64,000 nt of DNA from Clostridia bacterium (GTDB taxonomy: Bacteria; Bacillota; Clostridia; Lachnospirales; Lachnospiraceae). Shown here one piece after another: positions 5,510 through 61,997 of the stretch. Numbering within the stretch: position 1 is the first letter of the stretch; the number at the start of each line of letters is the position of its first letter. The position numbers and the translations under genes were made by a program. The stretch lies in NCBI GenBank assembly GCA_026000755.1, contig BNZC01000004.1, positions 1 to 64,000 on the forward strand, read 5' to 3'. A model generated the notes under the pieces. It worked only from the letters and a program-made list of their open reading frames with translations, was not told where the DNA came from and did no database searches.

Positions 5510-5589
5510 TGTTATTGTTTGGAGAGAAAACATGGAACCCTACTTTCAACTAGAAAGTGACGAAATATAAGCAGTTTATTATTATGTAT

Positions 5590-5618: not shown

Positions 5619-5652
5619 TACTTACATAAGATCCTTCTAAGGGATTTTATAG

Positions 5653-5707: not shown

Positions 5708-5724
5708 TACATGGAGGTAGTTAC

Positions 5725-6237: not shown

Positions 6238-6253
6238 AGAGAGGAGCAGACAA

Positions 6254-45005: not shown

Positions 45006-46976
45006 ATGAAGTTATTGTCTTACCTAAAACTAACCGTTCAGTATTACCGGGACTATGGCATGGGTGCCGTTGTAAAAAAATATAAAAATAAACTGCGAAA
45101 CAGCAGCATCTTCCGGAAACGGCTGTACCGTACTTATGTAAAGAGCATATTGCCCACAGAAGAGGAAAGAAAAGAGCAGAGCAGTCATGTGTTCTCAAAA
45201 GACATCTGCTTTTCTGTTTTGGTACCCTTATATAATACGCCCAAGGAATATCTGCTTGCCATGATAGAATCGGTGGAGAAACAGACCTATGGGAAGTGGC
45301 AGTTGTGCCTTGCGGATGCAAGCGACAGCGGCAGTAAGGAATGCCGTACCCCATTAAAGCAGAACGATTCGGCTGTTAGAGGGAGGGACTTTGACAGCCA
45401 TCAAATTCGCCGATTCTGTGAGGAAAAAGCAAAAGTCAATCCTCGCATCTCCTATCAAAAATTAGAAACCAACGGCGGGATTTCAGCAAACACCAACGCT
45501 GCCCTTGCCATGGCAACGGGGAATTACATGGTCTTGCTTGACCATGATGATCTTTTGCATGAGAGTGCACTTTATGAGCTTGCTTGTGCCATTGAAAAAC
45601 AGGATGCGGATTTTCTTTACACCGATGAGGCGGTTTTTCAAAATTCCATCGAAAATATCGTACTCTTTCATTTTAAGCCCGATTTTGCTCCGGATAATCT
45701 CTTGAGTAACAATTATATTACTCATTTGAGTTGTTTTGCAAAATCGCTTCTGGCGCAGACGGGGGGATTTCGCAAAGAATTTGACGGCAGTCAAGACCAT
45801 GATTTGATTCTGCGGTTGACAGGTGCGGCAAGGCACATTGTCCACATTCCGAAAGTCCTGTATTTCTGGCGTTCTCACCCTGCTTCCGTGGCTTCTGATT
45901 TATCGGCAAAAACCTATGCCATTGAGGCGGGACGAGCAGCGGTGCAGGATTATTTGGATACGAAAGGCGAGAGGGCAAGAGTCGAAAGTTCTACCGATTT
46001 TCCAACGATTTATCGGATTCGGTATGAGATTTTCGACAGCCCGAAGGTTTCGATTGTGATTCCCAATAAAGACCATGTAAAAGACTTGTCCCTTTGCCTG
46101 GAGTCGATTGAGAAAAAGACAAGTTATGGGAATTATGAAATACTTGTGGTGGAAAATAACAGTACACAGGAGGAAACTTGGAACTATTATGAAACGATCA
46201 AAAAGTGTCAAAATGTAAGTGTTGTGACATTCGAAAGTTCGGGTTCAGAAGCAAATTCGAAGCAAAAGAAAGCACCGAAACAATCAGAATCCGGTAATTT
46301 TGTGAAATCACAAGAACAGGTTCAGGAGAAATTAACATACACCTTTAACTACTCTGCACTCAATAACTTTGGAGTATCCAGGTGCAGTGGAGAATACATC
46401 CTATTCCTCAACAATGATACCGAGATCATAAGCCCTGACTGGATTCAAGAATTGCTGATGTATGCCCAAAGAAGTGACGTGGGCGCAGTGGGTGCAAAGC
46501 TGTTCTTTGCAAATGGTTGGATTCAGCATGGTGGGATTTTCCTTGGGTTGGGGGGAGTGATCGCCGCCGATGCCTATCAAGATGAACTGGATGTTAGGGG
46601 CTATATGGGGCGTTTGTGTTATGTTCAGGATGTCACGGCGGTGACAGGAGCCTGCATGATGGTGAAACGAACGGTCTTTGAACAAGTGGGCGGTTTTGAA
46701 GAAGCATTACCTGTAGCCTACAACGATGTGGATTTTTGCTTAAAATTGCATGAATGTGGCTATTTGAATATCATGACACCCCAGGCACAGCTGTTCCATT
46801 ACGAGTCCAAAAGCCGGGGGCGAGATGAGCAAGGGTCAGCAAAGGCACGTTTGGAACGAGATGTGACCTATATGCGGGAAAAATGGGGAGGGGTTATAGA
46901 AAAGGGTGATCCTTATTATAATCCGAACTTCTCAAGGACGAAAGTGTGGCGGCTCAAGGAAAGAGAAAGAATTTAA
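45006..46976 (+). CDS. Double-domain family 2 glycosyltransferase (WsaF/rhamnosyltransferase-like)
   Basis: 656 residues with two GT-A domains. The first (about 70-300) has SVLVPLYNTPKEYL, LLDHDDLLHE and HDLILRLTG; the second (about 345-640) has VSIVIPNKDHVKDL, LFLNNDTEIISPDWI, VTGACMMVKRTVF and YNDVDFCLKL. A hydrophilic insert rich in Ser/Lys/Gln lies around residues 415-440 (GSEANSKQKKAPKQSESG). RBS AAGGAG precedes the ATG at 45006. It probably builds a surface polysaccharide backbone. Confidence 0.92.
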   Translation: MKLLSYLKLTVQYYRDYGMGAVVKKYKNKLRNSSIFRKRLYRTYVKSILPTEEERKEQSSHVFSKDICFSVLVPLYNTPKEYLLAMIESVEKQTYGKWQLCLADASDSGSKECRTPLKQNDSAVRGRDFDSHQIRRFCEEKAKVNPRISYQKLETNGGISANTNAALAMATGNYMVLLDHDDLLHESALYELACAIEKQDADFLYTDEAVFQNSIENIVLFHFKPDFAPDNLLSNNYITHLSCFAKSLLAQTGGFRKEFDGSQDHDLILRLTGAARHIVHIPKVLYFWRSHPASVASDLSAKTYAIEAGRAAVQDYLDTKGERARVESSTDFPTIYRIRYEIFDSPKVSIVIPNKDHVKDLSLCLESIEKKTSYGNYEILVVENNSTQEETWNYYETIKKCQNVSVVTFESSGSEANSKQKKAPKQSESGNFVKSQEQVQEKLTYTFNYSALNNFGVSRCSGEYILFLNNDTEIISPDWIQELLMYAQRSDVGAVGAKLFFANGWIQHGGIFLGLGGVIAADAYQDELDVRGYMGRLCYVQDVTAVTGACMMVKRTVFEQVGGFEEALPVAYNDVDFCLKLHECGYLNIMTPQAQLFHYESKSRGRDEQGSAKARLERDVTYMREKWGGVIEKGDPYYNPNFSRTKVWRLKERERI

Positions 46977-46991
46977 TGCCTATAATATAGC

Positions 46992-47110
46992 TTATCGGAA
47001 GTTCGGTACGAACTTTCGATAAAAAATGCTTATCGAAACGCAGTTTCGGTAAGAGGGGCGTTCTTTGCCCCGTAAATCTGATTATAGGAAGTGTTCTTTA
47101 CTTCCTGTAA
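46992..47110. repeat. Chain of four hairpins, two with loop GTTCTTT
   Basis: TTATCGGAAGTTC/GAACTTTCGATAA (46992-47022); CTTATCGAAAC-GCA-GTTTCGGTAAG (47029-47053); GGGGC-GTTCTTT-GCCCC (47055-47071); TTATAGGAAGT-GTTCTTT-ACTTCCTGTAA (47082-47110). Their flanks and loops match the hairpins at 12916 and 44932. Confidence 0.85.
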
Positions 47111-47155
47111 TATTATTATTTCCTTGCGTTTCGCAATTACCTAGAAGATTATACC

Positions 47156-47229
47156 AAATAAAATCCAAACCTTATCAAGCAAATCTCTTTTCTATATGGG
47201 ATTTGTACGAAAAGATTTGGATTTTATTT
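47156..47229. repeat. 14-bp perfect inverted repeat upstream of tnpB-like gene
   Basis: AAATAAAATCCAAA (47156-47169) and TTTGGATTTTATTT (47216-47229) around a 46-base loop. It may be the left-end structure of an IS605-type element or a terminator. Confidence 0.7.
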
Positions 47230-47287
47230 TAGTTGGGATATTTATGATTTGGTACAAACCTCTTCAACCTCCCCGGCAAAGTTTTCC

Positions 47288-47314
47288 TTGACAATATATA
47301 TATATATATATAAT
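47288..47314 (+). promoter_or_regulatory. Promoter with (TA)9 spacer
   Basis: TTGACA (47288-47293) and TATAAT (47309-47314) are separated by 15 bases that are almost entirely a TA dinucleotide repeat (nine TA units, 47295-47312, running into the -10). One extra TA unit would give the ideal 17-base spacer. Both boxes are perfect consensus. Confidence 0.7.
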
Positions 47315-47376
47315 GGATAGTGTCGAAACCGCACTAACTTACGGCAAGGAAAACAGACAGGCAGGTACGCCGGATT

Positions 47377-48375
47377 ATGGAGAAACGCTTTAATTTTCGC
47401 ATATATCCCAACAAGGCACAAGAAGAACAGATCAGGAAAAACTTTGGTTGTGTTCGCTTTGTCTACAACTATTTTCTAAGCAAACGCATGGAGAAGTATA
47501 ATGCGGGTAAGGGTATTTACACTTACTATGAAGCCAGCAAAGACTTGACTGTGCTGAAAAAAACAGAGGGTTATGCGTGGCTCAAGGAAGCAGATTCTCA
47601 TTCCTTACAAAATGCCTTAAAAGACATGAATTTTGCTTTTTCGCAGTTTTATCGCAGAACGCGAGAAAAGAATGCCCAACCGGGCTTCCCGCGTTTCAAG
47701 AAAAAAGGAGAAACACGGCAGTCCTATATGAGTCAAGCCCAGATTGGCAGAAACGGTGTTCCCAGTATTGCAGTATTAGAGAAAACAATAAAACTGCCGA
47801 AATTGGGATTTGTGGCGTGCCGGGTGTCAAAACCCATCTCCGGCAGAATCCTTTCCGCAAATGTGTTTCAGGTTCCAAGCGGCAAATATTTTGTTTCGGT
47901 TTGTTGCACGGATATAGAGCAGGAGGCATTTCCACAGACGGGGAAAGAGATTACACTGCATGTTGGAACACAGAGTTTGACGGTATCCTCAGAAATGACA
48001 CAAAAGAAGATTTCACGCCTGCATCGGCACCTGTCACGAAAACCAAGGGGCAGTGCAAACTACGAAAAGGCAAGAGTGACTTTGGCGAAAGCCCATGAGC
48101 GAGTGAAAAACCAAAAGACCGACATGCTCCAGAAACTGAGTACGCAGTTGGTACGTGACCATGACCTGATTTGTATCCGCAAGGCAGAATTGGAAAAAAT
48201 GAGGGAAAAGTCCCATTTTACCTACCACCTATGGGATACGTCATGGGGCGAATTTGTAAAGATGCTGAAATACAAATGCAACTGGTATGGCAAGACTCTT
48301 GTGGAAGTTCCCGGGACACAGGATACAGACAGCGACATTCTCAGTAAGCCCCTATGGAATCCGGGTAATTTCTGA
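47377..48375 (+). CDS. TnpB-like protein, predicted nuclease-dead and C-terminally truncated
   Basis: 332 residues (active TnpB usually 370-410). The N-terminal half is typical: FNFRIYPNKAQEEQIRKNFGC, GFPRFKKKGE, ISRLHRHLSRKPRGSANYEKAR and DTSWGEFVKMLKYK are standard TnpB stretches. The RuvC-I aspartate (usually GIDLG) is replaced in TLHVG by H195. The RuvC-II glutamate (usually IEDLNV) is replaced in ICIRKAELEKM by R268. The zinc finger and RuvC-III aspartate are missing because the protein ends after LVEVPGTQDTD. No tnpA lies nearby. It is either a decaying transposon gene or an exapted RNA-guided DNA-binding protein of TldR type. Confidence 0.85.
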   Translation: MEKRFNFRIYPNKAQEEQIRKNFGCVRFVYNYFLSKRMEKYNAGKGIYTYYEASKDLTVLKKTEGYAWLKEADSHSLQNALKDMNFAFSQFYRRTREKNAQPGFPRFKKKGETRQSYMSQAQIGRNGVPSIAVLEKTIKLPKLGFVACRVSKPISGRILSANVFQVPSGKYFVSVCCTDIEQEAFPQTGKEITLHVGTQSLTVSSEMTQKKISRLHRHLSRKPRGSANYEKARVTLAKAHERVKNQKTDMLQKLSTQLVRDHDLICIRKAELEKMREKSHFTYHLWDTSWGEFVKMLKYKCNWYGKTLVEVPGTQDTDSDILSKPLWNPGNF

Positions 48376-48384
48376 TATTTATAG

Positions 48385-48500
48385 CACAACAATAGCTACA
48401 CGGTACGGGCGGGCAGTCCGAAACCTAACGCCTGTAGAGAATGTGTAAGACGGCTTGCCGCCACCTTCGTTGAAGCAGGAATCCCGTGTTACAGGGAAAG
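48385..48500 (+). ncRNA. Omega-RNA-like sequence downstream of TnpB-like gene
   Basis: The region contains ACCTAACGCCTGTAGAGA and CCACCTTCGTTGAAGCAGGA, conserved at the right end of many IS605-family elements where they form the scaffold of the omega-RNA. GGCGGGCA near 48407-48414 can pair with TGCCGCC near 48456-48462, and a terminal hairpin follows (CCC...GGG, 48483-48496). Flanking ACGGTAC/GTACCGT (48400-48406, 48505-48511) could close the structure. The guide would begin about 48501, in the leader of the next gene. Confidence 0.6.
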
Positions 48501-48543
48501 CCAAGTACCGTATTTTATTATAATTGATGGCGTGGAGTGTTCG

Positions 48544-50838
48544 ATGAAAAAATACCAACAACAGCAGCAGATGCTAGAAGTCGTATTTCTTAGTTACAAA
48601 GCGGCAATGAGTGATTCGATTGAAAGTATATACCTTGCCGCAAAAGCAGATCCTGCCTGTGATGCCTATTGGATTCCCATCCCCTACTACGACCGTAAGC
48701 CTGACGGAACACTTGGAACCATGCACTATGAGGGCGAAGAATATTATGCTGACAACATAGAGTGTACCGACTGGCAGACATATGATATTGAGGTCAGACA
48801 TCCCGATGTGATCTTTACCTTTAACCCCTATGATGGGGGAAATCGTATGACCACCGTTCATCCTGATTTTTACTGTAAACGTTTGCGGGGTTTGACAGAC
48901 TTGCTTGTCTATTGCCCCTATTTTGTCGTTGTGGACGATGTTCCGGAACATTTGGCAGAAGTTCTTGCTTGTGTATTTGCCCATAAGGTGATTGTGCAGT
49001 CCGAAAAAGTTCGTGATACGTATGTACGTGTGTATAAGGAGCAGTTCGGCGGTGTAGGCGACCGATTTGGTAAGCCGGAGGATAAATTCATCGCACTGGG
49101 AAGTCCAAAGTTTGATAAAGTAATCTATTCCAAGCGTGAGGACTTTATGCTTCCCGATGAATGGATGAAATTAATGGAAAGACCCAACGGAACAAGGAAG
49201 AAAGTCATTCTCTACAACACGACAGTCGCAGCAATTTTGCAGTACAGCGAGCAGTATTTGAAGAAATTACGCTCTGTGCTTGAAACATTCCGTGAGCGTG
49301 AGGATGTGGTACTGTGGTGGCGTCCCCATCCTCTGATGTTGGCTGCATTTTCCGGTATGCGACCCGAGTTGCCTGATGAGTATAAAAAGATTGTTGAAGC
49401 TTATAGGTGCGAGGGCTTTGGCATTTATGATGAAAGTGCCGACCTACACAGAGCGATTGCTTGGAGCGATGGGTATTATGGGGATTGGAGTTCCTTGGTA
49501 GCATTGTATGAAGTTACCGGAAAAGGAATGATGCTGCAAGATGTAAAGATGGACGTGCCTAAAAAGCACGATTACAGGCAACTATTGGTTCCTGCAAGTT
49601 CCGCTTATGACGGGTTGCTTTGTATAACGCTCTATGATTCCTTAATTGTGGCAATATCCCTTGTTGATACAAAAAACTTAATGCATAGTCACTTCTGCAA
49701 TTATCCTGTCTACAACAGCGATTTTGCGATATTGCCTTTTTCGTATGTAACATCAAAGATAGGAACAAAATTATACTTTGCTCCCCGTTGGTATGTACAA
49801 GGGAATCACTTTGCGATATACGATGAAATCACGAAAACCTTTGATTACATTGCTTTAGAGGATAAAACAACGGAACTGCTTGATGACGATGAAAATAGGA
49901 GCATTAAAAAGTGGGGAAGTAAATTAAATGATTCAAACAGTCCCAAATTCCAAAATATGATCAGCTATGGGGATTCCTTATTTCTTACACCGAGTTCTTA
50001 TCCCGCTATCGTTCGAGTGGATTTGAAAACGAAAGCCGTTTTTTACTATAACGATTTTGTTAAAGAACTTATACAAATCTCAAAAAAATACGGCAACCGC
50101 ACTTCGTATGCGTTTAGTATGTCACGTCAGCTTGGTTCAAAGATTTATATGGCTTGCAGATGGGCAGATCTTTTGGTCGAATTTGATATGGAAATATGTA
50201 AAAGCAAGATAATCCTATTAAGCGATCGAAAATTTGGCAATCCAGTGATTCAGTTTGACGGCGAAAACGTTTGGTTGTTTTCCGATCGTTATGATATTAC
50301 ACGTTGGAATCCAAAAACCTCAGAACACCGAGTATTTAACCACTATCCCGATGAGATTGGTGAAGCTCCTAAGTGGCAATTTTTCGCAATCTTGTGTGGA
50401 TTTATTTTTGCGAATACGGTAAACGATAAACAATCTCTATTAAAGATAGACACAAATTCAGGGGATATAACGATTGCCGGCGAACTAACGGAGATGATTT
50501 CCGCCGAAGAACACATTGTGTCCTTGGCAAATTGTGAGGAAAAATTATATCTTACAACCGATAAAAACAATATTTATGTATTAAGTGATTTGGATGGAGC
50601 GTATCGTAAAGCTGATTTTTCAAGTTCCGAAGAAGAAAAAATGCAATTGTACAGAGAACGCTTACGTCTTTATAAAAATACCGGAGCATTATTTTTTACA
50701 GAAAATGTCGAGTGTAGTTTAGATGAATATCTGGATGTGGTTTTAGGTGGAATTGAAGCTTGCAATGTTACCGGAACAGTACAAGGCGATACCGGCAGAC
50801 CAATATATGAATATATAAAAAACGAGCATGGTAATTAG
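48544..50838 (+). CDS. TagF-like glycerophosphotransferase fused to beta-propeller-like domain
   Basis: 764 residues from the ATG at 48544 (GGAG 6 bases upstream). The first ~330 residues resemble CDP-glycerol glycerophosphotransferases of teichoic acid synthesis: VVFLSYKAAMSDSIESIY, DVIFTFNPYDGGNR, LGSPKFDKV, VLWWRPHPLM and AWSDGYYGDWSSLV. The remaining ~400 residues show repeated strands such as GTKLYFAPRWYVQGNHFAIYD, GSKIYMACRWADLLVEFD and GENVWLFSDRYDITRWNP, the pattern of a beta-propeller. There is no signal peptide. First gene of the long surface-polymer operon. Confidence 0.75.
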   Translation: MKKYQQQQQMLEVVFLSYKAAMSDSIESIYLAAKADPACDAYWIPIPYYDRKPDGTLGTMHYEGEEYYADNIECTDWQTYDIEVRHPDVIFTFNPYDGGNRMTTVHPDFYCKRLRGLTDLLVYCPYFVVVDDVPEHLAEVLACVFAHKVIVQSEKVRDTYVRVYKEQFGGVGDRFGKPEDKFIALGSPKFDKVIYSKREDFMLPDEWMKLMERPNGTRKKVILYNTTVAAILQYSEQYLKKLRSVLETFREREDVVLWWRPHPLMLAAFSGMRPELPDEYKKIVEAYRCEGFGIYDESADLHRAIAWSDGYYGDWSSLVALYEVTGKGMMLQDVKMDVPKKHDYRQLLVPASSAYDGLLCITLYDSLIVAISLVDTKNLMHSHFCNYPVYNSDFAILPFSYVTSKIGTKLYFAPRWYVQGNHFAIYDEITKTFDYIALEDKTTELLDDDENRSIKKWGSKLNDSNSPKFQNMISYGDSLFLTPSSYPAIVRVDLKTKAVFYYNDFVKELIQISKKYGNRTSYAFSMSRQLGSKIYMACRWADLLVEFDMEICKSKIILLSDRKFGNPVIQFDGENVWLFSDRYDITRWNPKTSEHRVFNHYPDEIGEAPKWQFFAILCGFIFANTVNDKQSLLKIDTNSGDITIAGELTEMISAEEHIVSLANCEEKLYLTTDKNNIYVLSDLDGAYRKADFSSSEEEKMQLYRERLRLYKNTGALFFTENVECSLDEYLDVVLGGIEACNVTGTVQGDTGRPIYEYIKNEHGN

Positions 50839-50877: not shown

Positions 50878-51660
50878 TTGAAAGTAGTGATTCTTGCAGG
50901 CGGATACGGCACACGTATCAGTGAGGAATCGTATCTAAAACCAAAACCAATGGTCGAAATAGATGAAAAACCGATACTCTGGCATATTATGAAATACTAT
51001 TCGACATTTGGCTTTCATGAGTTTGTAATATGTTGCGGTTATAAAGCCTATCTAATTAAGGAATATTTCGCCGACTATTATATACATACGTCTGATGTAA
51101 CTTTTGATTTTACAAAAGACGGACAAGGAAGTATGGAAGTTCACAGCAATCAGTCAGAGCCATGGAAAGTCACTCTTGTGGATACGGGCAAGGATGTTCA
51201 AACAGGCGGCAGAGTAAAACGGATTCAACGATATATCGGCAATGAAACTTTTATGCTTACCTATGGTGATGGTGTGAGTAATGTTGATTTACACTCCGTT
51301 CTAAAATTGCATAGCGAAAGCAAAAAGACAGTTACATTGACAGGGGTTCAGCTTGCCGGGCGTTTCGGCTTGCTTGATATTGAAAATAACACAGTCACGG
51401 CATTCCGGGAAAAAGACATAGAAGAGGGCGGTTGGATCAATGGTGGATTTATGGTTTGCGAGCCTGAGATATTTCAGCTGATTGGTGGAGATGATACGAA
51501 TTTTGAGCGAACAACATTGCCGCAATTAGCTGTTGATGGCAAACTCTGTGTTTATAAACATTTTGGGTTTTGGAAATGTATGGATACGCAACGCGATAAA
51601 ATGAATTTGGAGGCATTATGGAATGATGGCAAGGCGGCTTGGAAAGTGTGGGACAAATGA
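50878..51660 (+). CDS. rfbF: Glucose-1-phosphate cytidylyltransferase
   Basis: Makes CDP-glucose from CTP and glucose 1-phosphate, the entry to CDP-deoxysugars. 260 residues from the TTG at 50878 (AGAGGGAGAGG upstream). VILAGGYGTRISEE, KPKPMVEIDEKPILWHIMKYY, FMLTYGDGVSNVD and GGWINGGFMVCEPEIF follow the RfbF pattern. No CDP-glucose 4,6-dehydratase is present in the window, so the next step lies elsewhere or CDP-glucose is used directly. Confidence 0.94.
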   Translation: MKVVILAGGYGTRISEESYLKPKPMVEIDEKPILWHIMKYYSTFGFHEFVICCGYKAYLIKEYFADYYIHTSDVTFDFTKDGQGSMEVHSNQSEPWKVTLVDTGKDVQTGGRVKRIQRYIGNETFMLTYGDGVSNVDLHSVLKLHSESKKTVTLTGVQLAGRFGLLDIENNTVTAFREKDIEEGGWINGGFMVCEPEIFQLIGGDDTNFERTTLPQLAVDGKLCVYKHFGFWKCMDTQRDKMNLEALWNDGKAAWKVWDK

Positions 51661-52708
51661 ACGGACTAAGCAAGCAAGTCTCTCTGATCGTGAACGAGTT
51701 ATCTTTGATCAACTGCAAGATGACTTGTCACGTCGGATCTTTCTTGCAAGAAAAGAGTTTACAGCCTTGCATTACGATGACTTTAGTGAAACACACGCCA
51801 CATCTCATTTTGAGCAATATTTTTTTGGGACAAATGAATGTTACTGCCCGCTTGAAAAGATTAGAAATATTTTAGAAACAGACAAGTGTATTATTTATGG
51901 GTATGGCAGGACAGGCAAGGCACTTTTGGCATCAATCCATAATACTTGCAATATTACTGCCATATATGATAACAATGCAGCAACTGCACAGCACCCGCCA
52001 ACAAGTTTGAAGGATTTTCCTGCATTTGATTATATTGTCATAGCAGTACTTGTTCCGGGTTTCCAACGTGAAATCATAAAGGAACTGCAAAAACTTGGCG
52101 TTGACTGGGAGAAAATTCTTTGCCCCTTTGTTATTGATGAAGAGAATCAATATTTTGATTCGGATATTATTCAGTTGGTTCCTGATGAAGTGTTTGTGGA
52201 TGGTGGTTGTTTCGATTTTTCCACATCTGCGAGGTTGCTGAAACTAAATCCGAATGTCAAAAAGATATATGCGTATGAACCAGACCCAACGAATGTAAAG
52301 CTTGTGCACAAAAATGCGAAGAAAGCAGGATTTACCAATGTCGAGATTGAGGAATTGGCGTGGTGGAAAGAAGAGACAAGCTTGCGGTTTCGTTCTTGGG
52401 GTGGGGCATCAAGAAAGGACGAAAACGGCACAATTGCTGTTAATACCAAAACGATAGATAATGTTGTGAAAGAGGAATACATCACATTTATCAAGATGGA
52501 TTTGGAGGGTGCCGAGTTGGAAGCGTTGATCGGGGCGAAAGAAACAATACTGCGATGTCGTCCGAAATTAGCAATCTCAATCTATCACAAACCAAACGAT
52601 TATTATGAAATTGCGGAATATATTAAAAGTATTGTGCCGCAATACAGACTCTTCATACGGCATTACAGTTCCGTTAATGATGATACTGTTTTATATTGCG
52701 TAATGTAG
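51623..52708 (+). CDS. FkbM-family methyltransferase with N-terminal YGYG module
   Basis: 361 residues from the ATG at 51623, overlapping rfbF by 38 bases; a second ATG follows at once, and GGAGG lies upstream. The N-terminal 165 residues contain a Rossmann-like module (CIIYGYGRTGKALLASI...AIYDN). The C-terminal part is a SAM-dependent FkbM domain: EVFVDGGCFDFSTSARL, KIYAYEPDPTNVKL, ITFIKMDLEGAELEAL. It likely O-methylates a sugar of the glycan. Start is somewhat uncertain. Confidence 0.85.
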   Translation: MMARRLGKCGTNERTKQASLSDRERVIFDQLQDDLSRRIFLARKEFTALHYDDFSETHATSHFEQYFFGTNECYCPLEKIRNILETDKCIIYGYGRTGKALLASIHNTCNITAIYDNNAATAQHPPTSLKDFPAFDYIVIAVLVPGFQREIIKELQKLGVDWEKILCPFVIDEENQYFDSDIIQLVPDEVFVDGGCFDFSTSARLLKLNPNVKKIYAYEPDPTNVKLVHKNAKKAGFTNVEIEELAWWKEETSLRFRSWGGASRKDENGTIAVNTKTIDNVVKEEYITFIKMDLEGAELEALIGAKETILRCRPKLAISIYHKPNDYYEIAEYIKSIVPQYRLFIRHYSSVNDDTVLYCVM

Positions 52709-52724
52709 GAAAGGACGTGACTTG

Positions 52725-53963
52725 ATGACAATTCTTATTGTCGGTCTTGGATTTGTAGGTTTGACAACAGCACTTGGTTTTGCCGACAAGGGATTTCAAG
52801 TGTTTGGCTACGATAGTAACCGTACACATTCCGATAAAATTCACAGTGGAGAAGTGCCGTTTGTAGAACCCGGTTTGCCGGAAGCACTCGGGAGAAACCT
52901 TGGAGCAAACTTCAAAGTTGTAGAAAATATGGATGAATTTACTGCAAAAGCAGATATTGTATTTTTGTGTGTTGGTACGCCTTGTGACGAAAGCGGCAGA
53001 GCCGACTTAAATGATTTGAAATCGGGCATTGACAGCATAGCAGACAAGGTGAACGCAGAAGGCTTATTAGTTATCAAATCAACGGTTCCGCCGGGAACCA
53101 CCCAAAAAGAGATTATCCCCTATGTCAGGACACATGGACTGAAAGCTTCGGTTGCCGTAAACCCGGAATTTTTACGAGAGGGTTGGTGTTGGTCGGATTT
53201 TACCAAACCCGATCGCATTGTGTGCGGTATAGATGAGGGAAGAGTTATTGCCCGAACACTTTTGAGCGAACTATATGCACCATTTGATGCACCGATGCAT
53301 TTTGTCACCCCCAATACAGCGGAATTTATCAAGTATCTTTCGAATAGCCTTTTGGCAAATTTAATTAGTTTTTCAAATGAAATGGCAGGAATCGCTGTTG
53401 CGGCAGGAGATGTGTCGCTTGGTGAAGCGTTCAAAATATTGCACGAAGATAACCGTTTATCAGGTGCAGGAATTAACAGTTATATCTATCCCGGCTGCGG
53501 TTATGGCGGATATTGTTTGCCAAAAGATACAACTGCGCTGATTCAGAGTGCAAAAAGCAATGGGTTTGAGGCAAACATCCTTCAAGAGGTTGTTACGTTA
53601 AATGAGAGTATGCCTCGCTTGACCGCAGAGAAAATTATACGAAAGACAAAAGATAAGACCGATAAGATTGGCATACTCGGTCTGTCCTTTAAGCCAAATT
53701 CAGATGATGTTAGGTACAGTCCTGCCGCAAAAATAATAGAACAGTTACTTGTCTTTGGGTATCAAAACATTTATGTTTATGACCCTGTCGCCAATGACAA
53801 ATTCAAAGAATATTATAAGTTTCCCTTGCATTATTGCCCGACAAAAGAGGACGTTTGCAGTATATGTTCTGTCGTTGCACTAGTAACAATATGGAGAGAA
53901 TTTAAGGGTATCAATAAAATTTATCCTCACATTGTGTGGGAAGACTGTAGGTATTTTTTATGA
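52725..53963 (+). CDS. UDP-glucose/GDP-mannose dehydrogenase family protein
   Basis: Oxidises a nucleotide sugar C6 to the uronate in two NAD-dependent steps. 412 residues from the ATG at 52725 (AAAGGA 9-12 bases upstream). NAD-binding VGLGFVGLTTALGFADKG, ESGRADLNDL, VIKSTVPPGTT, VNPEFLREG, and the catalytic cysteine in GYGGYCLPKDT are intact. The C-terminal domain GILGLSFKPNSDDVRYSP completes the family architecture. The exact nucleotide sugar is not certain. Its stop overlaps the next start. Confidence 0.93.
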   Translation: MTILIVGLGFVGLTTALGFADKGFQVFGYDSNRTHSDKIHSGEVPFVEPGLPEALGRNLGANFKVVENMDEFTAKADIVFLCVGTPCDESGRADLNDLKSGIDSIADKVNAEGLLVIKSTVPPGTTQKEIIPYVRTHGLKASVAVNPEFLREGWCWSDFTKPDRIVCGIDEGRVIARTLLSELYAPFDAPMHFVTPNTAEFIKYLSNSLLANLISFSNEMAGIAVAAGDVSLGEAFKILHEDNRLSGAGINSYIYPGCGYGGYCLPKDTTALIQSAKSNGFEANILQEVVTLNESMPRLTAEKIIRKTKDKTDKIGILGLSFKPNSDDVRYSPAAKIIEQLLVFGYQNIYVYDPVANDKFKEYYKFPLHYCPTKEDVCSICSVVALVTIWREFKGINKIYPHIVWEDCRYFL

Positions 53964-55450
53964 ATCATTATGAATACGCACAAGATTTGATCAACGCCGA
54001 GAAATTAGATGCTTTTTTGAACAGATTTGATACAGGCACGCCTGTTATCATCTATGGTGCGGGTAACAACGGTTGCCTTTGTGCGCAGCATTTGCTGCGA
54101 ATTGGCGTACCGATCAAGTGCTTTGTTGATGCACATAAGGACATACAAAACGATAAACCTTACTTTATTGACATCGTTTCACCACGGAGAATGAAGGCGG
54201 ACTATGACAATGAAGTGATTATCATTACTCCCTACGGCAACAGTGAGTTTGTAGAGGAGTTCCTGCTCATGGCAGATTTCCCGGAGGATAAGATTTACAA
54301 ATTGGAGTTTGATAAGACTTGCTTTGAAATAAAACTGCCTGATTTGGAGCAACATACGCCGTCACAGTTATCATATATGAAAACTATGACGCAGAATCCC
54401 CCGATAACGGTGTTTTCGCTTATATACAATACGCCGGAACACTATCTCAGGCGTTCGATTGAAAGTGTTCTCAATCAATCGTTTCGAGAGTTCATGTATT
54501 TCATTGTAGACCACGGAAGTAATGACGGAACTACGAGTAGGATAATAAGCGAATATGCGGAGCTAGATAAACGAATTAAAGTATATCGCACCGAAATAAA
54601 TGTTGAAGTCGAGCGGCAACTCGGCAGAGATGCGACACACTTTAGAGAAGCATTATTTCAAGAAATAAAGAAACGGGTTACTACAGAATATATGTGCTGC
54701 TTGGATTCGGATGATTTTTATGCAAGAGATTATCTCAAATACACATATACCAATGTGGTAGAACAATTTGCCGATATGGTGTGCATTCAGTCATCCGTAT
54801 ATGAGGAAAACAACCACCAAAATGTTAGATTTTTGTGGTATCCGATACTATCAAGCGAGATCATCGCAAGAAGTGAGAAAGAGAAATGGCTTGCTTTTTG
54901 TGAAACAAGGATGCCGGAAGCCGCTTGGAGTGTACTCGTAAAATCGGAAATTTATCTAAATGCTTTTCACGCCTCGTGGAGTTGTCCGAATGGCTTAACC
55001 ACAGATAAAAAAATGAGTTTTGAAATGCTTAAGGCAAGCAAATGTGTGATATTTACACGCAATACCTACTATACACTTACGCTTCGTACTGCTTCCGTTG
55101 TGGGAGGAAGCAAGTCTTCTGATTGGAAGTATATGCTTACGTGGTTTGACTGGATGATAAACGAGTGGTTGCGTGAAACGAGAGATAGGTACAAGCAGCT
55201 GAATTTGAATGCAAAGCAGTACGCATACCCGCTTGCACAGTATATCGTTACATTTGTTTTCAGTATGTCTGATAAGTTGATGAAACATCGTACAAGGCAG
55301 GAGTTAACGGAATTTTATCATAAACTGGAAGATATTCTTATGGAGGAATATATTTCACAGGTTATTGCTTATCGAAAATTTTATAGAGATTGGCACCAGA
55401 AAATCAAAACTTACTTTGAAGGCGGAGATGACGGAGCGATAATCGGATGA
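53960..55450 (+). CDS. GT2 glycosyltransferase with N-terminal YGAG module
   Basis: 496 residues; start overlaps the previous stop (ATGA). Residues ~25-120 form the Rossmann-like module (VIIYGAGNNGCLCAQHLLR...CFVDA...VIIITPYG). The GT-A domain follows with PPITVFSLIYNTPEHYL, IVDHGSNDGTTSR and the metal motif CLDSDDFYARDYL. The C-terminal 150 residues are helical and rich in aromatic and basic residues, perhaps for membrane or acceptor contact. Its role in glycan assembly is inferred from the operon. Confidence 0.87.
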   Translation: MNHYEYAQDLINAEKLDAFLNRFDTGTPVIIYGAGNNGCLCAQHLLRIGVPIKCFVDAHKDIQNDKPYFIDIVSPRRMKADYDNEVIIITPYGNSEFVEEFLLMADFPEDKIYKLEFDKTCFEIKLPDLEQHTPSQLSYMKTMTQNPPITVFSLIYNTPEHYLRRSIESVLNQSFREFMYFIVDHGSNDGTTSRIISEYAELDKRIKVYRTEINVEVERQLGRDATHFREALFQEIKKRVTTEYMCCLDSDDFYARDYLKYTYTNVVEQFADMVCIQSSVYEENNHQNVRFLWYPILSSEIIARSEKEKWLAFCETRMPEAAWSVLVKSEIYLNAFHASWSCPNGLTTDKKMSFEMLKASKCVIFTRNTYYTLTLRTASVVGGSKSSDWKYMLTWFDWMINEWLRETRDRYKQLNLNAKQYAYPLAQYIVTFVFSMSDKLMKHRTRQELTEFYHKLEDILMEEYISQVIAYRKFYRDWHQKIKTYFEGGDDGAIIG

Positions 55451-56391
55451 TTTCTGTGATCATGTTGGCATATAATCGAGCAAATTATATAAGATATGCG
55501 ATTGAAAGTGTTCTGAAACAGACATATCGTGACTTTGAACTGCTTATCATCGACAACAATGCAAGCGATGGCACGTCGGAAGTGTTGCGAGAGTATGAGA
55601 AGAAAGATGAGCGGATACGATTATTCAAACGCACAGACAGTAAAATCGGTGCGGGACGTAATTTGGGCTTGGAAAACATAAGCGGCGAATATTTTACGTT
55701 TGTTGATGATGATGACTACTGCGAAGCGGATTATTTGAGTTTCCTGCATAATTTAGCGGAAACATACAATGCTGACATCACCGTATGCGGTTCGTATTAC
55801 GACACCAAGGGAGAAATTACACCGAAGTATGTTTTTGACGAAACGATACTTTGCAAAAGGGAACAGGCAATTACAAATTTTTTACTCCGCAGATATTTTA
55901 ACAATGGAAATCCAACAAAATTGTTCAGGCGAACGCCGGCAATCAGTGCAATTCGGTATCCAGAAAATGGGCAATATGATGACATTCACACAATGTATAA
56001 GTTTTTTTCCGCAACAGGCGAACAACCGATTGCGGTTGCAGCGAAAGGCGAGCCGAAATATATTGTTCGCCGCCATATGGCGAACAACAGTAGTGCTACG
56101 CTTGACTTTTCGAAATTAACACCGGAATGGTTGAGTGAATATCTCACAGCCTATCGAAAACGTACGGAATATATTAGTGTAAAATTCTCGTCACTTGCAG
56201 AACTTGTGGTATGGAGTGAATGGTCGTATATGATTTCTATGGTCGAGAAAATCAACAGATTTTCGTTGGCGAATTGTTCCTCACAACTTGTGGATATGAC
56301 CGCAGAATTGAAATATAATCGAGAACGATTTTTGTCCGCAGAATGGACACGTGATTTTGAAAAAGAATGGATAAAGGAGTATATTTTATGA
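55447..56391 (+). CDS. Family 2 glycosyltransferase
   Basis: 314 residues, start overlapping the previous stop (ATGA). SVIMLAYNRANYIRYAIESVL, IIDNNASDGTSE, GAGRNLGLENISGEYF and the acidic metal motif VDDDDYCEADYL are those of a GT-A enzyme. There is no YGAG module in this one, making it the smallest transferase of the operon. Its stop overlaps the first radical SAM gene (ATGA). Confidence 0.9.
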   Translation: MISVIMLAYNRANYIRYAIESVLKQTYRDFELLIIDNNASDGTSEVLREYEKKDERIRLFKRTDSKIGAGRNLGLENISGEYFTFVDDDDYCEADYLSFLHNLAETYNADITVCGSYYDTKGEITPKYVFDETILCKREQAITNFLLRRYFNNGNPTKLFRRTPAISAIRYPENGQYDDIHTMYKFFSATGEQPIAVAAKGEPKYIVRRHMANNSSATLDFSKLTPEWLSEYLTAYRKRTEYISVKFSSLAELVVWSEWSYMISMVEKINRFSLANCSSQLVDMTAELKYNRERFLSAEWTRDFEKEWIKEYIL

Positions 56392-57260
56392 TACAACTAG
56401 ATGAATTACAAAAATTGCCGGTTGACCGAATTAGCTTAGGATATGCAGAGGACGGTGCATTTATTATTCCCGGCTTGGCTGTAATCACCACGACAGAGTG
56501 TAACTTGCATTGTAAACTCTGTGTGCAGAAAACATCCTATATAAAGGGGAAGATGTTTCGGTTTCCGCAATTAAAAGCTTGGCTTGATGAAGTATTTGAA
56601 ATAGCTGATTATGTCATAAAGTTGAGCTTGGGGGGGGGGGAACCCTTAATCAATTCAGACCTCACGGAAATCTTGCTTTACCTGAACAATTACAGGAACC
56701 GAATCGGCAGTTTACGAATTGTTACCAATGCAACAATTTTGCCGAACGAAGACTTGATACAGGCCTCGGCAATAACAAAATGCAATTGGCTGTTAGCCGA
56801 TTATCCGGTAAAAAACAGACTTTCCGAAATTGTGACGCTTCTTGAAAACAACAATATCGAGTATCAAGCGAGAGATTATCGCAGTGCAACTCCATATATG
56901 GACGGTTGGGTAGATTTTGGTGACTTTAAGACAAAACATGAAAGACATGGCGTATGTCCTCGTATCAATCAATATATCAATTTAGTGGACGGTAAACTAT
57001 TTGCGTGTGGCATGGAAGGCGTTTTTATGCAGGTGGACGAAAAAGCCGCATTCGATAGATGCCGGGACAGTTCCATTGATTTAGAAAACCACAATGAGAC
57101 GGTCTCGTTCAAACGTGAAAAGTTGATAAGTGCAAGGCAAAAAGGCAGTGTGGATTTGTGTGAGTATTGTAACGGAAACGATGCGGATTGCCCACGCTTT
57201 ACACCCGGCGAACAATTAACACCACAAGAGTTGGTGGAAATCAGAAAATCGGAGATGTGA
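56388..57260 (+). CDS. Radical SAM protein 1 (short SPASM-like tail)
   Basis: 290 residues from the ATG at 56388 (AAGGAG 8 bases upstream, overlapping the previous stop). The [4Fe-4S]/SAM site CNLHCKLC uses C38, C42 and C45; the GGE motif is LSLGGGEPLIN at residues 82-86. The C terminus has CPRINQYINLVDGKLFACGME and CEYCNGNDADC, cysteines like those of a SPASM/Twitch domain. Eleven G encode the GGE motif itself. The substrate may be a sugar or a peptide linked to the glycan; not predictable. Confidence 0.9.
   Translation: MIQLDELQKLPVDRISLGYAEDGAFIIPGLAVITTTECNLHCKLCVQKTSYIKGKMFRFPQLKAWLDEVFEIADYVIKLSLGGGEPLINSDLTEILLYLNNYRNRIGSLRIVTNATILPNEDLIQASAITKCNWLLADYPVKNRLSEIVTLLENNNIEYQARDYRSATPYMDGWVDFGDFKTKHERHGVCPRINQYINLVDGKLFACGMEGVFMQVDEKAAFDRCRDSSIDLENHNETVSFKREKLISARQKGSVDLCEYCNGNDADCPRFTPGEQLTPQELVEIRKSEM
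56630..56640 (+). repeat. Poly-G tract (11) at the radical SAM GGE motif
   Basis: Longest homopolymer in the window. It encodes Gly-Gly-Gly-Glu, the SAM-binding motif, so any slip both frameshifts and destroys the motif. Confidence 0.95.
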
Positions 57261-57262
57261 AA

Positions 57263-58306
57263 ATGATTTCGAAACAATATGTCTATGACTTAAACAGGGT
57301 GAAATTATCCGATGTTCTTCCCATTAGAACCCCATATCACATCTCTGTTGAAGCCACTTTTCGCTGTAATATTCGTTGCAACTACTGCATTCATGCGATG
57401 GACGGGAGTGAAATAAATCGGCGAGGGTATCATCAAAAAGATATGTCTTGGGACGCATTCGAACGAGTTGTCAGCTCGATTCATGAATTTGAAGACCCCA
57501 TTAAGTCGGTTGTGTTTTCCGGATTGGGTGAACCGCTCGTTAATAAACGCCTTCCGGAAATGGTAAAGCGAGTGAAAGATACCGGGCGAGTCGAGAAGAT
57601 TCTTTTGATCACAAACGGGCTATTGTTGACGCATGAAACAAGCGATGCGTTAATTGATGCCGGGCTTGACATTTGCAAAATATCGCTACAGGGGATGTCA
57701 GTTGAAAGCTATAAAAAGATTTGCGGTGTAAAGATGGATTGGGATGTCTTTTATGACAACATCGTATACTTTTCCGAACACAAGAATAAGTGCCTCTTAA
57801 AAGCGAAGATAGGCGATACTGCACTTTTAGAAAACGATGAGAAACTATTCTACGAGAAATTCAGTTCTATTTGTGATTATGTTGATATTGAGCATATTTA
57901 CCCTCAGTTTGACGGTGTTGATTATAGTGAAACTGTTTTAGCAGACGAAGGGAAGAATAGATTTGGGCATAGTTTTAAGCAGTTGAACGTTTGTTCGCCG
58001 TTATTTTATCGCTTGTATGTCTTGCAAGATGGAAGAGTAACTTTTGCCTATCCGGATGGCATAACGTATGAAGGTTTTCATTTGAACAATATGACATTAC
58101 GCAAGATGTGGGAGGCGGACGAGACAAAAGATATGTGGAGGAATGCACTTACACATAATCTGTCGGTTTGCCAAACATGCCCTCGGTGGAGTTATTCGGC
58201 TCATCCTGACGATATTATTGACGGATTTGAGCAAGAGATACTGGCGAAAATACCCGAACCAACCAAGGACATTAAGCAGAGACAAGTGCTTTGTATGGAA
58301 ATTTAG
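57263..58306 (+). CDS. Radical SAM protein 2 with SPASM domain
   Basis: 347 residues from the ATG at 57263 (GGAG 8 bases upstream). CNIRCNYC at C35, C39 and C42 binds the cluster; VVFSGLGEPLVNK is a GGE variant with Gly-Leu-Gly-Glu; LLITNGLLL and ICKISLQGMS follow. The C-terminal CSPLFYRLYVLQDGRVTFAYPDG, NMTLRKMWEAD and CQTCPRW match SPASM proteins. It follows radical SAM 1 with no gap, so the two probably act in sequence. Confidence 0.92.
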   Translation: MISKQYVYDLNRVKLSDVLPIRTPYHISVEATFRCNIRCNYCIHAMDGSEINRRGYHQKDMSWDAFERVVSSIHEFEDPIKSVVFSGLGEPLVNKRLPEMVKRVKDTGRVEKILLITNGLLLTHETSDALIDAGLDICKISLQGMSVESYKKICGVKMDWDVFYDNIVYFSEHKNKCLLKAKIGDTALLENDEKLFYEKFSSICDYVDIEHIYPQFDGVDYSETVLADEGKNRFGHSFKQLNVCSPLFYRLYVLQDGRVTFAYPDGITYEGFHLNNMTLRKMWEADETKDMWRNALTHNLSVCQTCPRWSYSAHPDDIIDGFEQEILAKIPEPTKDIKQRQVLCMEI

Positions 58307-58315
58307 GAGGAACTC

Positions 58316-59497
58316 ATGATTAAAATTAGTGAATTGCCGATTCCGCCGGAGGAATATCAAAAAGAAATCGTAGAAAGCTTGAATCCAAGGATCAGTGAAC
58401 ACCCAATGATGTCGCCGGATGAACGCTATTTTCTAAATGGCTTGCTTGCGTATTACAAGCCCACCAACGTACTTGAACTTGGCGTTAATTTCGGCGAGGG
58501 TAGTGCACAAATTCTTCATAATATTCGAAATACGCCGGAGGCGAAGCTTACGTCTATTGATTTGGCGGAGTTTGCGTTTTACAATGAAATCATAGACGAA
58601 AAAAAGAATACAAAGCGTGGAGTAATATCCGATGAACCAATTGGTAAATTCGCATTTACACATCCTGACTTGCCGCTTGATAAGTGGACACTTGTGACCG
58701 GAAAAGATCCGAGCGAAGTGATTGCCGGATTGGATAATTCCAAGGACGGCTATGATTTTTTGGTGCTTGATACAGCTCACCTGCATCCAATTGAGTTGCT
58801 GAATTTTTTGTGCGTGTTGCCGTATCTTCGTGACGGTGCAATTGTAGTGTTACACGATATTACGTTATTTGCACTGTATATTCCACCTTACGCATTTGCT
58901 TGCAGGCAGTTGTTTGGGGCTGTCGTGGCGGAACGCATTCAACTGAACAGCCGGTTTTCAAATATTGGAGCGTTTCAGGTATCTGCGGACACACGTAAAT
59001 ACATTCAAAATGTGTTTGAAAGCCTCGTTCTCCCATGGGAAATCGACCCGCGCAACGTACGCACAAGTGCGATTGCGACACTTTTGAACGAACATTATGC
59101 CTTGAAAGAATTAAGTGTTTTTAGAGAAGCTTTGAGATTAAATATGCACTATTATGTGTCAGGAAAAATCGAATGGCATTGCTGGGAAAATATGCGGACA
59201 GAACTTTTTGTTTCACATCTGTTCGGGCAAACCATTTATTATGGTGCCGGACGTAATATGGCGGATTGTTTAGAATATTGCAAGCAAAATGATATTGTAT
59301 TTGAAGCTCCGATTTGGGATATAGCAGCCGATAAAATCGGCGAAATATGTGGACACAGAGTTACAGTTCCGGATTATTCGTCTTCGGGAATCAAAAAAAC
59401 GCTCATTATCACAATTTGGGATGAGCAAATACGTGAAACAGTACGGGTTCAATTTGAAAAACTTGGGTATACGGTGAAATGTTATATCTGGAATTAG
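58316..59497 (+). CDS. CmcI-like methyltransferase with C-terminal YGAG module
   Basis: 393 residues. The class I methyltransferase part contains NVLELGVNFGEGSAQIL, LTSIDLAEFAF, YDFLVLDTAHLHPIELL and AIVVLHDITLFAL, like cephalosporin-hydroxylase/rhamnosyl O-methyltransferase relatives. From about residue 303 comes the shared module QTIYYGAGRNMADCLEYCK...IIT. RBS GGAGGA precedes the ATG at 58316. It could methylate a sugar hydroxyl. The RNA/DNA alternative is unlikely. Confidence 0.8.
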   Translation: MIKISELPIPPEEYQKEIVESLNPRISEHPMMSPDERYFLNGLLAYYKPTNVLELGVNFGEGSAQILHNIRNTPEAKLTSIDLAEFAFYNEIIDEKKNTKRGVISDEPIGKFAFTHPDLPLDKWTLVTGKDPSEVIAGLDNSKDGYDFLVLDTAHLHPIELLNFLCVLPYLRDGAIVVLHDITLFALYIPPYAFACRQLFGAVVAERIQLNSRFSNIGAFQVSADTRKYIQNVFESLVLPWEIDPRNVRTSAIATLLNEHYALKELSVFREALRLNMHYYVSGKIEWHCWENMRTELFVSHLFGQTIYYGAGRNMADCLEYCKQNDIVFEAPIWDIAADKIGEICGHRVTVPDYSSSGIKKTLIITIWDEQIRETVRVQFEKLGYTVKCYIWN

Positions 59498-59510
59498 GAT
59501 GGTATTACGA

Positions 59511-60776
59511 ATGAAACAAACTATTTTTTACGGAGCAGGCAAAAATGCCGAAGATAACTTTTCTGCTTGGACAGACCTTGGCATGATACCCGTGTGTTTT
59601 GCCGATGCGGATAAGACAAAGCACTACAGTAAATTTCAATCAAGCGAGATAGACATTTTACCTCTTGAGGAAGCTATCTTAAAGTATCCTGATTTTGAAC
59701 TATATGTCACTCCAACGTCTGAAAAATGGGAGAGTATTGCAGCCTATTTGGCAAAATGGGGGGGGGTACCTTTGGCAGCGATAAAGTTTTTCGAGCCGGT
59801 GGAATATCGCAAAGGTTGCCCGTCTATGGGACGTTGTTTTATCACGTATAACAAGATAGGCTGTTGCTGCGTACCCGTTTACAGGGACAACTTTGAATTT
59901 GAGATAAACTCGGACTACCGTTTGAATTTTCGCTATTTTGAAGAGAAAAGCAAGGCAGTAATTGACGACTGGAGAAACAACAGACCATCTATTTGTGATG
60001 GTTGCCCAAACCTTATTTTTGGAATTTATGATATTGCCCCCGTTGTTGAGGAATTAAATATTAGCTCAAAAGATAATGCTGACTTTTGCAATACAAAGTG
60101 TATCTATTGTTCCTCATTTCCGAAGCCGGAACAAGCCACCTATGAGGAGCGCGGACGTGAAGTGATTGCAATGCTTGAAACAGCACATTCGTTGTATCCT
60201 GATCACAAGTTCAGAGTATATGTAAGCGGCGGTGATATTGCGGTTGCACCGTTCCGTGACAAGTTGTTTGATGTATTAAAAAAGTATGCCTGGAATGCTG
60301 ATATTTATTCAAATTCGGCGGTATATTGTGAAGCTGCGGCAGAACAGTTGCGTGATGGACAATCCGCCTATGTCACCACGCTGGACTCTACTATCCGGGA
60401 GAAGTTTGCAGAAATAAAGGGCGTTGACTGCTTGCCGAAAGTACTGGAAAACATAAAACGCTATTCTGAAGCGGCGGTTGATAAACGTCAAATCAACATA
60501 AAGTTAATTGTTTTAGACGGAATATATGAAAATTTCGAAGAAATGGGCGGCGTTGTTGATTTTGTGGAGAGCATAGGTGCAAACTTGTGGTTGAGCTGTA
60601 ATGTCTATAACGCCGATAAGCGACTTTCAGATGGGATGTTTGAGATGACAGTTAGATTGTTAAATTATGCGTTCAATAAACAGATTTTCGTGAACATTAT
60701 GTATGACCATTTTAATATTGAGGATGCCGCCATGTTGCGGAATCAATGGGAAATTATCCAAGGAGGGATAACATGA
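59511..60776 (+). CDS. Radical SAM protein 3 with N-terminal YGAG module
   Basis: 421 residues from the ATG at 59511; an in-frame ATG at 59499 is also possible. The module (TIFYGAGKNAEDNF...CFADAD) fills the first ~100 residues. Then comes a cysteine-rich stretch (CPSMGRCF, GCCCVP, CDGCPN), unusual for this family, and the radical SAM core CNTKCIYC (C193, C197, C200) with VSGGDIAV in place of GGE. Nine G at 59758 encode WGGV. The last bases overlap the GT8 start. The extra cysteines may hold another cluster. Confidence 0.82.
   Translation: MKQTIFYGAGKNAEDNFSAWTDLGMIPVCFADADKTKHYSKFQSSEIDILPLEEAILKYPDFELYVTPTSEKWESIAAYLAKWGGVPLAAIKFFEPVEYRKGCPSMGRCFITYNKIGCCCVPVYRDNFEFEINSDYRLNFRYFEEKSKAVIDDWRNNRPSICDGCPNLIFGIYDIAPVVEELNISSKDNADFCNTKCIYCSSFPKPEQATYEERGREVIAMLETAHSLYPDHKFRVYVSGGDIAVAPFRDKLFDVLKKYAWNADIYSNSAVYCEAAAEQLRDGQSAYVTTLDSTIREKFAEIKGVDCLPKVLENIKRYSEAAVDKRQINIKLIVLDGIYENFEEMGGVVDFVESIGANLWLSCNVYNADKRLSDGMFEMTVRLLNYAFNKQIFVNIMYDHFNIEDAAMLRNQWEIIQGGIT
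59758..59766 (+). repeat. Poly-G tract (9) in radical SAM 3
   Basis: Encodes Trp-Gly-Gly-Val at the end of the YGAG module. Confidence 0.95.
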
Positions 60777-61945
60777 ACAAACAAATTATACCTGTCGTAT
60801 TTGCTACGGACGAAAACTATGTGCCTTACTGCGGGGTCGCAATTTCCTCTTTAATAAAAAACGCAAGTCGAAGCAATACTTACGAAGTATTCGTGTTTTT
60901 TGACAAGTTGTCGGGCTTGAGCATTTATAAACTGGAACGGTTATCAACAGATCATGTTAAAGTGGTTTGTTGTTGCATTCACGAGCAAATTACCAATCTA
61001 AAAGTATCGGAATACAACCACTTAACGATCGCATCGGCATATAGGCTAGTCATACCGAATGTTTTACCACAGTTTGAAAAAGTGTTATATTTGGACTCGG
61101 ATATTGTTGTAAATGCTGATGTTGCAGATTTGTACAATATAGATATTGGGACTAATATTCTTGGAGCGGTGCGAGGTTATAATGATGATGACAAGAATGT
61201 TTGGGGATATAATCATATTACGAAAACCCTCGGCATAAACAGAGATAGTTTCTTTAACGCAGGAATACTCATTATAAATACAAAGGAATTTATAAACAAT
61301 AGTGTTGCACAGAAATGTTTTTCATTGTTGTCCAATAGACAAGACTTGTATTTTATGGATCAGTGTGCACTGAATATAGTTTGCGAAGGGAAAGTACATT
61401 TTTTACCTCATAAATGGAATCACGAGTGGTTGTATTTGTTTTCTGCCAACAATTCTTTGCTCCCAAACAGTAGAGAGGAATTTGAAGCCTGTGCCAATCC
61501 GGCTATTATTCACTATGACGGAGTTGAAAAGCCTTGGGATTACCCTGAGCAGTGTCTCTCTGATTATTTTTGGTCATATGCAAGGCAGACGGTATTTTAT
61601 GAAGAAATTGTATATTCTGCGCAACTGCGTCATACAAGAGAATTGCTAGAACTATCCGGTGTGATCGGTAAATATAGGAATATAGCGATATACGGTGCAG
61701 GTAATGCCGGCAAGAAATATGTCAGTAGGATGTCGACGTTAAAACTGTGCAATATTGTACTTTGGATTGATAAGAATTTCACAGAAAAACAAGGTTTAGA
61801 GCTTCCGGTGGAGAGCGTTGATAAACTCTATACAACGGAATTTGACCATGTATTCATCGCAATTGAGAACATTGCAATATCAAACCAAGTGAAAGAGATG
61901 CTGATTTCCAATCATATACCGCCTGAGAAAATAATTCAAATATAG
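60773..61945 (+). CDS. GT8 glycosyltransferase with C-terminal YGAG module
   Basis: 390 residues from the ATG at 60773 (AAGGAGGG upstream, overlapping the previous stop). GT8 features are IIPVVFATDENYVPYCGVAI, SEYNHLTIASAYRL, the metal-binding VLYLDSDIVVNADV, FFNAGILIINTKEF and ALNIVCEGK. From about residue 305 comes the module NIAIYGAGNAGKKYVSR...LWIDKN...VFIAIEN. GT8 enzymes add galactose or glucose in many glycans; the donor here is not fixed. Confidence 0.88.
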   Translation: MNKQIIPVVFATDENYVPYCGVAISSLIKNASRSNTYEVFVFFDKLSGLSIYKLERLSTDHVKVVCCCIHEQITNLKVSEYNHLTIASAYRLVIPNVLPQFEKVLYLDSDIVVNADVADLYNIDIGTNILGAVRGYNDDDKNVWGYNHITKTLGINRDSFFNAGILIINTKEFINNSVAQKCFSLLSNRQDLYFMDQCALNIVCEGKVHFLPHKWNHEWLYLFSANNSLLPNSREEFEACANPAIIHYDGVEKPWDYPEQCLSDYFWSYARQTVFYEEIVYSAQLRHTRELLELSGVIGKYRNIAIYGAGNAGKKYVSRMSTLKLCNIVLWIDKNFTEKQGLELPVESVDKLYTTEFDHVFIAIENIAISNQVKEMLISNHIPPEKIIQI

Positions 61946-61997
61946 TAAACGTAAAAATGAAGACTACTATCTTTAATGCTTGATGGAGGGATTATTT

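Follow-up and report, generated by a model that had tools for sequence, protein, structure and literature searches.

TldR proteins, the founding description of which is reportedly that of Wiegand in 2024, are the described systems closest to the gene analysed here, and oppF is among the published cases. The csrA-linked TldRs are chromosomal, with Oscillibacter and Flavonifractor named and a target inside the fliC gene (PMC13418256). The window (the whole stretch of DNA analysed, 64,000 nucleotides at the start of a contig from a Clostridia bacterium) carries a gene for a TnpB that has lost its nuclease residues, followed by an omega-RNA scaffold and a guide. The features discussed below are listed in Table 1.

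Table 1. Features of the dead tnpB locus and its surroundings, in window coordinates
Feature	Position	Strand	Basis
Family 2 glycosyltransferase, 656 aa, upstream neighbour	45006..46976	+	Pfam
Candidate promoter of the dead tnpB: TTGACA 47288-47293, (AT)9 47294-47311, TATAAT 47309-47314	47288..47314	+	Sequence reading
Nuclease-dead TnpB (TldR-like), 332 aa	47377..48375	+	ORF, profile matches, alignment, tree, predicted structure
H195 codon, at the position of the first catalytic Asp	47959..47961	+	Alignment
R268 codon, at the position of the catalytic Glu	48178..48180	+	Alignment
20-residue tail and stop, replacing the zinc finger and third RuvC motif of relatives	48313..48375	+	Alignment
Omega-RNA scaffold, terminal hairpin shortened apically	48402..48504	+	Covariance model; 17/17 pairs with letters standard
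Inferred guide, length of 20 assumed	48505..48524	+	Starts after model end at 48504
Downstream neighbour, 764 aa from ATG, no Pfam match	48544..50838	+	ORF, Pfam
Glycan-type gene run	50878..63272	+	Pfam

A TnpB homologue without its catalytic residues

The protein scores 208 bits against the NCBIfam model NF040570 (RNA-guided TnpB; cut-off 100) and 312 bits against the stricter IS200_TnpB model, below the cut-off of 425; in Pfam, HTH_OrfB_IS605 and OrfB_IS605 are above cut-off and Cas12f1-like_TNB is just under. An AlphaFold2 model built on a 101-sequence alignment has a mean pLDDT of 90.5 and a pTM of 0.85, with a poorly predicted tail beyond about residue 310, and its top PDB match in Foldseek is the ternary complex of ISDra2 TnpB with reRNA and DNA (TM 0.85, rmsd 2.3 Å). 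The NF040570 score and the ISDra2 match identify the protein as a TnpB homologue, and a TnpB fold is confidently predicted. In the first-pass annotation, the N-terminal and helical parts were described as well kept, and the model bears this out. The same annotation held that all three RuvC positions had been lost, and this was confirmed by alignment with ISDra2 TnpB (8h1j, E 9e-59), in which H195 lies opposite the first aspartate and R268 opposite the glutamate of what we take to be the catalytic residues of that enzyme; the zinc-finger cysteines and the third RuvC motif are absent, 20 residues following position 312. The protein does not have the D, E, D triad of live IS200/IS605 TnpB nucleases. 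Relative to its sister, P0002, the window copy has two private features: it lacks the C-terminal end, and about 11 residues are deleted internally, immediately after RuvC-I. The dead triad was not gained by the window copy, the alignment and the tree placing it as ancestral to a large clade.

A large clade of dead TnpB proteins

Two protein searches, with the best 120 matches of each listed, yielded 188 different proteins including that of the window. The whole triad is absent from at least 83 of these 188 homologue clusters, the window's own included, and this count is a lower bound because each search gives only its best 120 matches. When the 188 proteins were aligned with 12 genome loci, 117 of the 200 sequences had D/E/D and none was half-dead or mixed. 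Across the 83 dead sequences listed, the first triad position is occupied by H in 66, Q in 9, K and R in 3 each and A and S in 1 each, and the second by R in 71, K in 7, other residues in 4 and a gap in 1; the third has drifted, with A in 39, G in 16, other residues in 17 and a gap in 11. This His/Arg signature provides an easy search key for the clade.

A maximum-likelihood tree was built from 82 dead sequences (P0019, with 255 aa, was left out for its length) and 24 of the 105 live ones. The dead sequences make up one side of a branch with a support of 100, and the dead clade has a support of 99 in a second tree (71 rows, of which 28 are from the dead clade, with viral relatives included). 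The closest protein in the tree to that of the window is P0002 (74% identity), in which the zinc finger is present; nearer live relatives could be missing, as the tree was sampled by best hits. Averaged over the 82 dead sequences, divergence from the crown amounts to 0.76 changes per column. The best explanation of these alignments and trees is that the triad was lost once, giving the dead clade a single origin, and the significance of the clade would lie in a nuclease-dead TnpB line that diversified deeply after this single loss. No description of the clade was recognised in a literature search, which is not a claim of its absence from print. The window protein perhaps belongs to an undescribed clade, and it is possible that a TldR-like line arose here independently of the published TldRs.

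The full cysteine set is missing from 10 of the 82 dead sequences and from none of the 19 live ones in alignment A4. With P0035, which is seemingly cut by a contig end, excluded from the count of zinc-finger losses, the other nine correspond to six changes on the tree, and contig ends could account for further C-terminal losses among them. In these nine sequences, likeness to the zinc finger ends shortly past the same conserved WYGK-type stretch and is followed by tails of 4 to 63 residues. Loss of the C-terminal piece about six times in the dead clade, with no case among the 19 live sequences, resembles a recurrent path. The window gene, P0028, P0049, P0092 and P0109 provide very small natural dead effectors (315–332 aa) with neither the zinc finger nor the third RuvC motif. 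In five other members of the clade (P0122, P0125, P0126, P0128 and P0130; 402–426 aa), the region of the third RuvC motif is rewritten rather than deleted.

The omega-RNA and its guide

With a covariance model trained on 12 live omega-RNAs, the window left out, a search of the window to a limit of E 10 gave one match (54.7 bits, E 3e-9), as did a search of the assembled genome to a limit of E 1 (E 7e-8). The omega-RNA previously placed downstream of the gene is, thus, beyond chance, and the guide, which had been put at around 48501–48520, has its start corrected to 48505 because the scaffold model ends at 48504. In an alignment of 17 RNAs, fitted to the model and therefore favoured by it, 99.1% of the cells at paired positions are paired and 16 of 19 pairs have changed on both sides. 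The window RNA lacks two pairs at the apex of the terminal hairpin, the 17 remaining pairs all being intact. A guide RNA is kept in the one dead-clade member with readable DNA. The folding energy of 48385–48504 is no better than that of shuffled sequences (z -0.35), and no Rfam family reaches its cut-off within the window. A TATAAT at 48519–48524, within the guide, was rejected as a promoter of the downstream gene, as it has no -35 box and is too close to the ribosome site.

Targets were sought in the assembled genome, which spans 1.55 Mb in 129 contigs and is 68% complete, with the 20-mer guide at up to three mismatches and a 12-mer seed at up to one. The guide starting at 48505 had no convincing target in this 68%-complete genome, and its matches were at background level: one non-self 20-mer (0.29 expected, none for the reversed control) and 13 non-self 12-mers (10.1 expected, 21 for the reversed control). 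The best non-self 20-mer, with three mismatches in an oppC-like gene (C25:3400), was rejected as background, with 0.29 expected, as was an exact 12-mer at C34:1175 (0.28 expected) in a gene reading like a solute-binding protein. A near-match (11/12) at C37:3081, in a giant flagellin gene, is also statistically background and was kept as a weak lead. This flagellin-type gene (L183; C37:2138–6553, minus strand) has an open frame of 1472 codons. Of the TldR-like regulator of envelope genes proposed earlier, the TldR profile is supported, whereas control of envelope genes is not supported by the guide matches in this 68%-complete genome.

Exaptation or decay

The gene probably encodes an RNA-guided regulator of TldR-like type that arose by exaptation; selection would have maintained it as a protein that binds DNA with the help of a guide RNA and blocks transcription of its target. 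The cutting residues have been lost, the protein core and the scaffold have been kept, and the dead family is large, which suggests exaptation as an RNA-guided gene regulator; together, the dead residues, the intact scaffold, the single copy, the lack of a TnpA in the assembly, the selection described below and the dead clade give the profile of a TldR.

The alternative that survives best, itself unlikely, is that of a decaying IS relic: the clade may function, but the truncated window copy would be on its way out, its RNA and ORF surviving because the decay is recent. The C-terminal loss and internal deletion private to this copy would fit such a fate, as would an omega-RNA with the lowest score (54.7) of the 17 aligned RNAs and a guide without a target in the 68%-complete genome, but the ORF is fully open and the roughly six separate C-terminal losses in the dead clade (10/82 against 0/19 live) look like a recurrent path, some of them possibly explained by contig ends. 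The pattern of substitution also argues against decay. Substitutions placed on the window branch were compared with column variability within the dead clade; they affect 23 of 220 usable sites (residues 1–312), in columns with a mean entropy of 1.85 versus 1.09 overall (p 2e-5), and 17 of the 23 new residues are present elsewhere in the dead clade in the same column. Values for the branch leading to P0002, the sister that has a zinc finger, are similar (24 of 221 sites; entropy 1.90 versus 1.10). Conserved columns are respected both in residues 1–180 (p 0.0018) and within the RuvC part taken by itself (residues 181–312, p 0.0017), and the same test with the tail included gave the same picture. 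Since the changes on the window branch fall in variable columns, as on the P0002 branch, the protein appears to have been under selection. Purifying selection is thus supported by the sequence comparison; a long drift as a pseudogene would not fit, although a very recent pseudogene could.

Genomic context and expression

Less probable than a relic is a still mobile element, in which the dead TnpB would serve the transposon (by limiting transposition or titrating live TnpB) and be moved in trans by a foreign TnpA. The family does originate in IS200/IS605-type TnpB, the right-end-like RNA end is still recognisable, and the few named sources among the dead matches listed are MAGs from three families (Gracilibacteraceae, Oscillospiraceae and Lachnospiraceae). 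Against mobility, the gene is single-copy, with neither a second TnpB nor a second omega-RNA in the assembled 68%-complete genome, and the lack of a tnpA nearby, noted in the first-pass annotation, extends to the whole of this assembly, in which there is no Y1 tnpA match. What shrank in the RNA is the terminal hairpin, to which a TnpA would bind, and the dead clusters among the matches listed have at most four member sequences, versus up to 756 for live ones, a comparison confounded by sampling. The left end of an element was not identified in the window. A palindrome cluster occupies 46990–47229, between the glycosyltransferase gene and the dead tnpB, with 30-nt arms at 47156–47185/47200–47229 (83% complementary) and a further palindrome at 46992–47022; it may be a terminator, an old left end or a set of small repeats.

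The glycan-type run downstream encodes a nucleotidyltransferase, an FkbM methyltransferase, a UDP-sugar dehydrogenase, glycosyltransferases of families 2 and 8 and radical SAM proteins. Past the end of the window, more sugar-nucleotide-type genes were recognised by eye. The adjacency of the dead tnpB to this operon is a single observation at one locus. The csrA gene of this genome is on contig C7, and four flagellin-N matches are on C7, C15 and C37; none was found on the window contig (C4), whereas a csrA- or fliC-associated TldR would be expected to have a csrA or flagellin gene within a few kb. The ORF just ahead of csrA reads, by eye, like FliW.

The -35 and -10 hexamers of the candidate promoter are 15 nucleotides apart, and one added AT unit would bring them to 17; the candidate was not listed by a consensus promoter scan with a spacing of 16–18. 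Outside its (AT)9 tract, the window has no run of (AT)8 (none in 100 shuffles), and there is no other run of at least six units within the 132,857 genome bases examined, overlapping loci counted. In the hifA/hifB promoter region of Haemophilus influenzae, a (TA)9–11 tract is reported to switch fimbriae via box spacing (PMC2651432). By analogy, the tract between the boxes hints, speculatively, at phase-variable expression of the dead tnpB, which a dinucleotide tract in a promoter spacer could switch. An extended form of the regulator reading would make this large, anciently dead clade (known almost only from metagenomes, the few names being of Clostridia; mostly His/Arg; repeatedly losing the zinc finger) a whole family of regulators guided by RNA, here controlling surface or flagellar glycan genes or the giant flagellin, with expression switched by (AT)n slippage; taken as a whole it is unlikely.

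Relatives in other genomes and viral contigs

Scans of 397 genomes of the family, 391 of the class, 392 of the order and 395 of relatives (overlapping draws, each including the own genome, with strict cut-offs and at most about five candidates scored per genome) revealed no dead-clade member beyond the own genome; the search set contained no further genome of the own genus. All 27 loci taken from other genomes in three of these scans had D/E/D, and a separate contig scan gave one live relative. A first protein scan of viral contigs gave 35 loci, comprising 28 with D/E/D, four truncated matches that retain D (three of them E as well) and three with none of the positions, and two further scans gave 93 loci, 90 of them D/E/D, two truncated and one dead but of another lineage. 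Plasmid and phage records had no match of at least 60% identity.

A separate nuclease-dead TnpB (376 aa, ORF 4998–6128, triad R/S/A) was seen on a viral contig (L125; IMGVR_UViG_3300032038_000051, 4191–6620), between two CRISPR-like arrays, the upstream one with 11 repeats, spaced mostly by 61 nt, and the downstream one with about six, each preceded by an omega-RNA match (42.6 bits). The one spacer searched among viral contigs matched only its own contig. This looks like a dead TnpB that is evolving into a type V CRISPR effector; roughly 50 transitions from TnpB to CRISPR have been reported (PMC12669027). Three of its relatives are also dead (P0191, R/S/A; P0207, R/S/A; P0275, R/R/A), 116 of the 120 best matches listed being live, so there may be another lineage of dead TnpB proteins.

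For the window gene itself, RNA-guided binding for a use other than repression (to activate genes, to control replication or, as in inactive type V effectors, to defend the cell by binding rather than cutting) is very improbable, for although RuvC-inactive Cas12 proteins of types V-C and V-M interfere through binding (PMC12669027; PMC10442227), the window gene has a single guide and no CRISPR repeat array beside it at 46900–47420 or 48300–48700.

Proposed mechanism and comparison with known systems

For the TldR-like regulator favoured here, the following sequence of events is proposed. In a TnpB lineage, the catalytic residues of RuvC would have disappeared in a single ancient loss, and the dead protein would still bind its own omega-RNA, the complex scanning for a TAM beside a sequence matching the guide. 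The R-loop would then be held without being cut, because the metal site is gone, and the histidine and arginine that mostly occupy the ligand positions may make the bound state more stable. The bound complex would block transcription of its target, as described for TldRs (PMC13418256). If the dead protein does bind DNA, RNA-guided gene regulation would be wider than the published fliC and csrA cases (PMC13418256).

The window gene resembles live IS200/IS605-type TnpB genes (e.g. L018, L055 and L062) in family, omega-RNA structure and gene–RNA order, but the live proteins keep D, E and D, and all 19 of those in alignment A4 keep the zinc finger. Unlike type V-C and V-M systems, it has no CRISPR array in view beside it, but an inactive RuvC domain and RNA-guided binding as a working principle would be common to both. 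It differs from the TldRs in having no csrA or flagellin gene on its contig and no target found, in the mostly H and R triad of its clade and in the repeated loss of the zinc finger; like the TldRs, it is derived from TnpB, has lost its RuvC residues, has its scaffold beside the gene and is not located on an active IS (PMC13418256).
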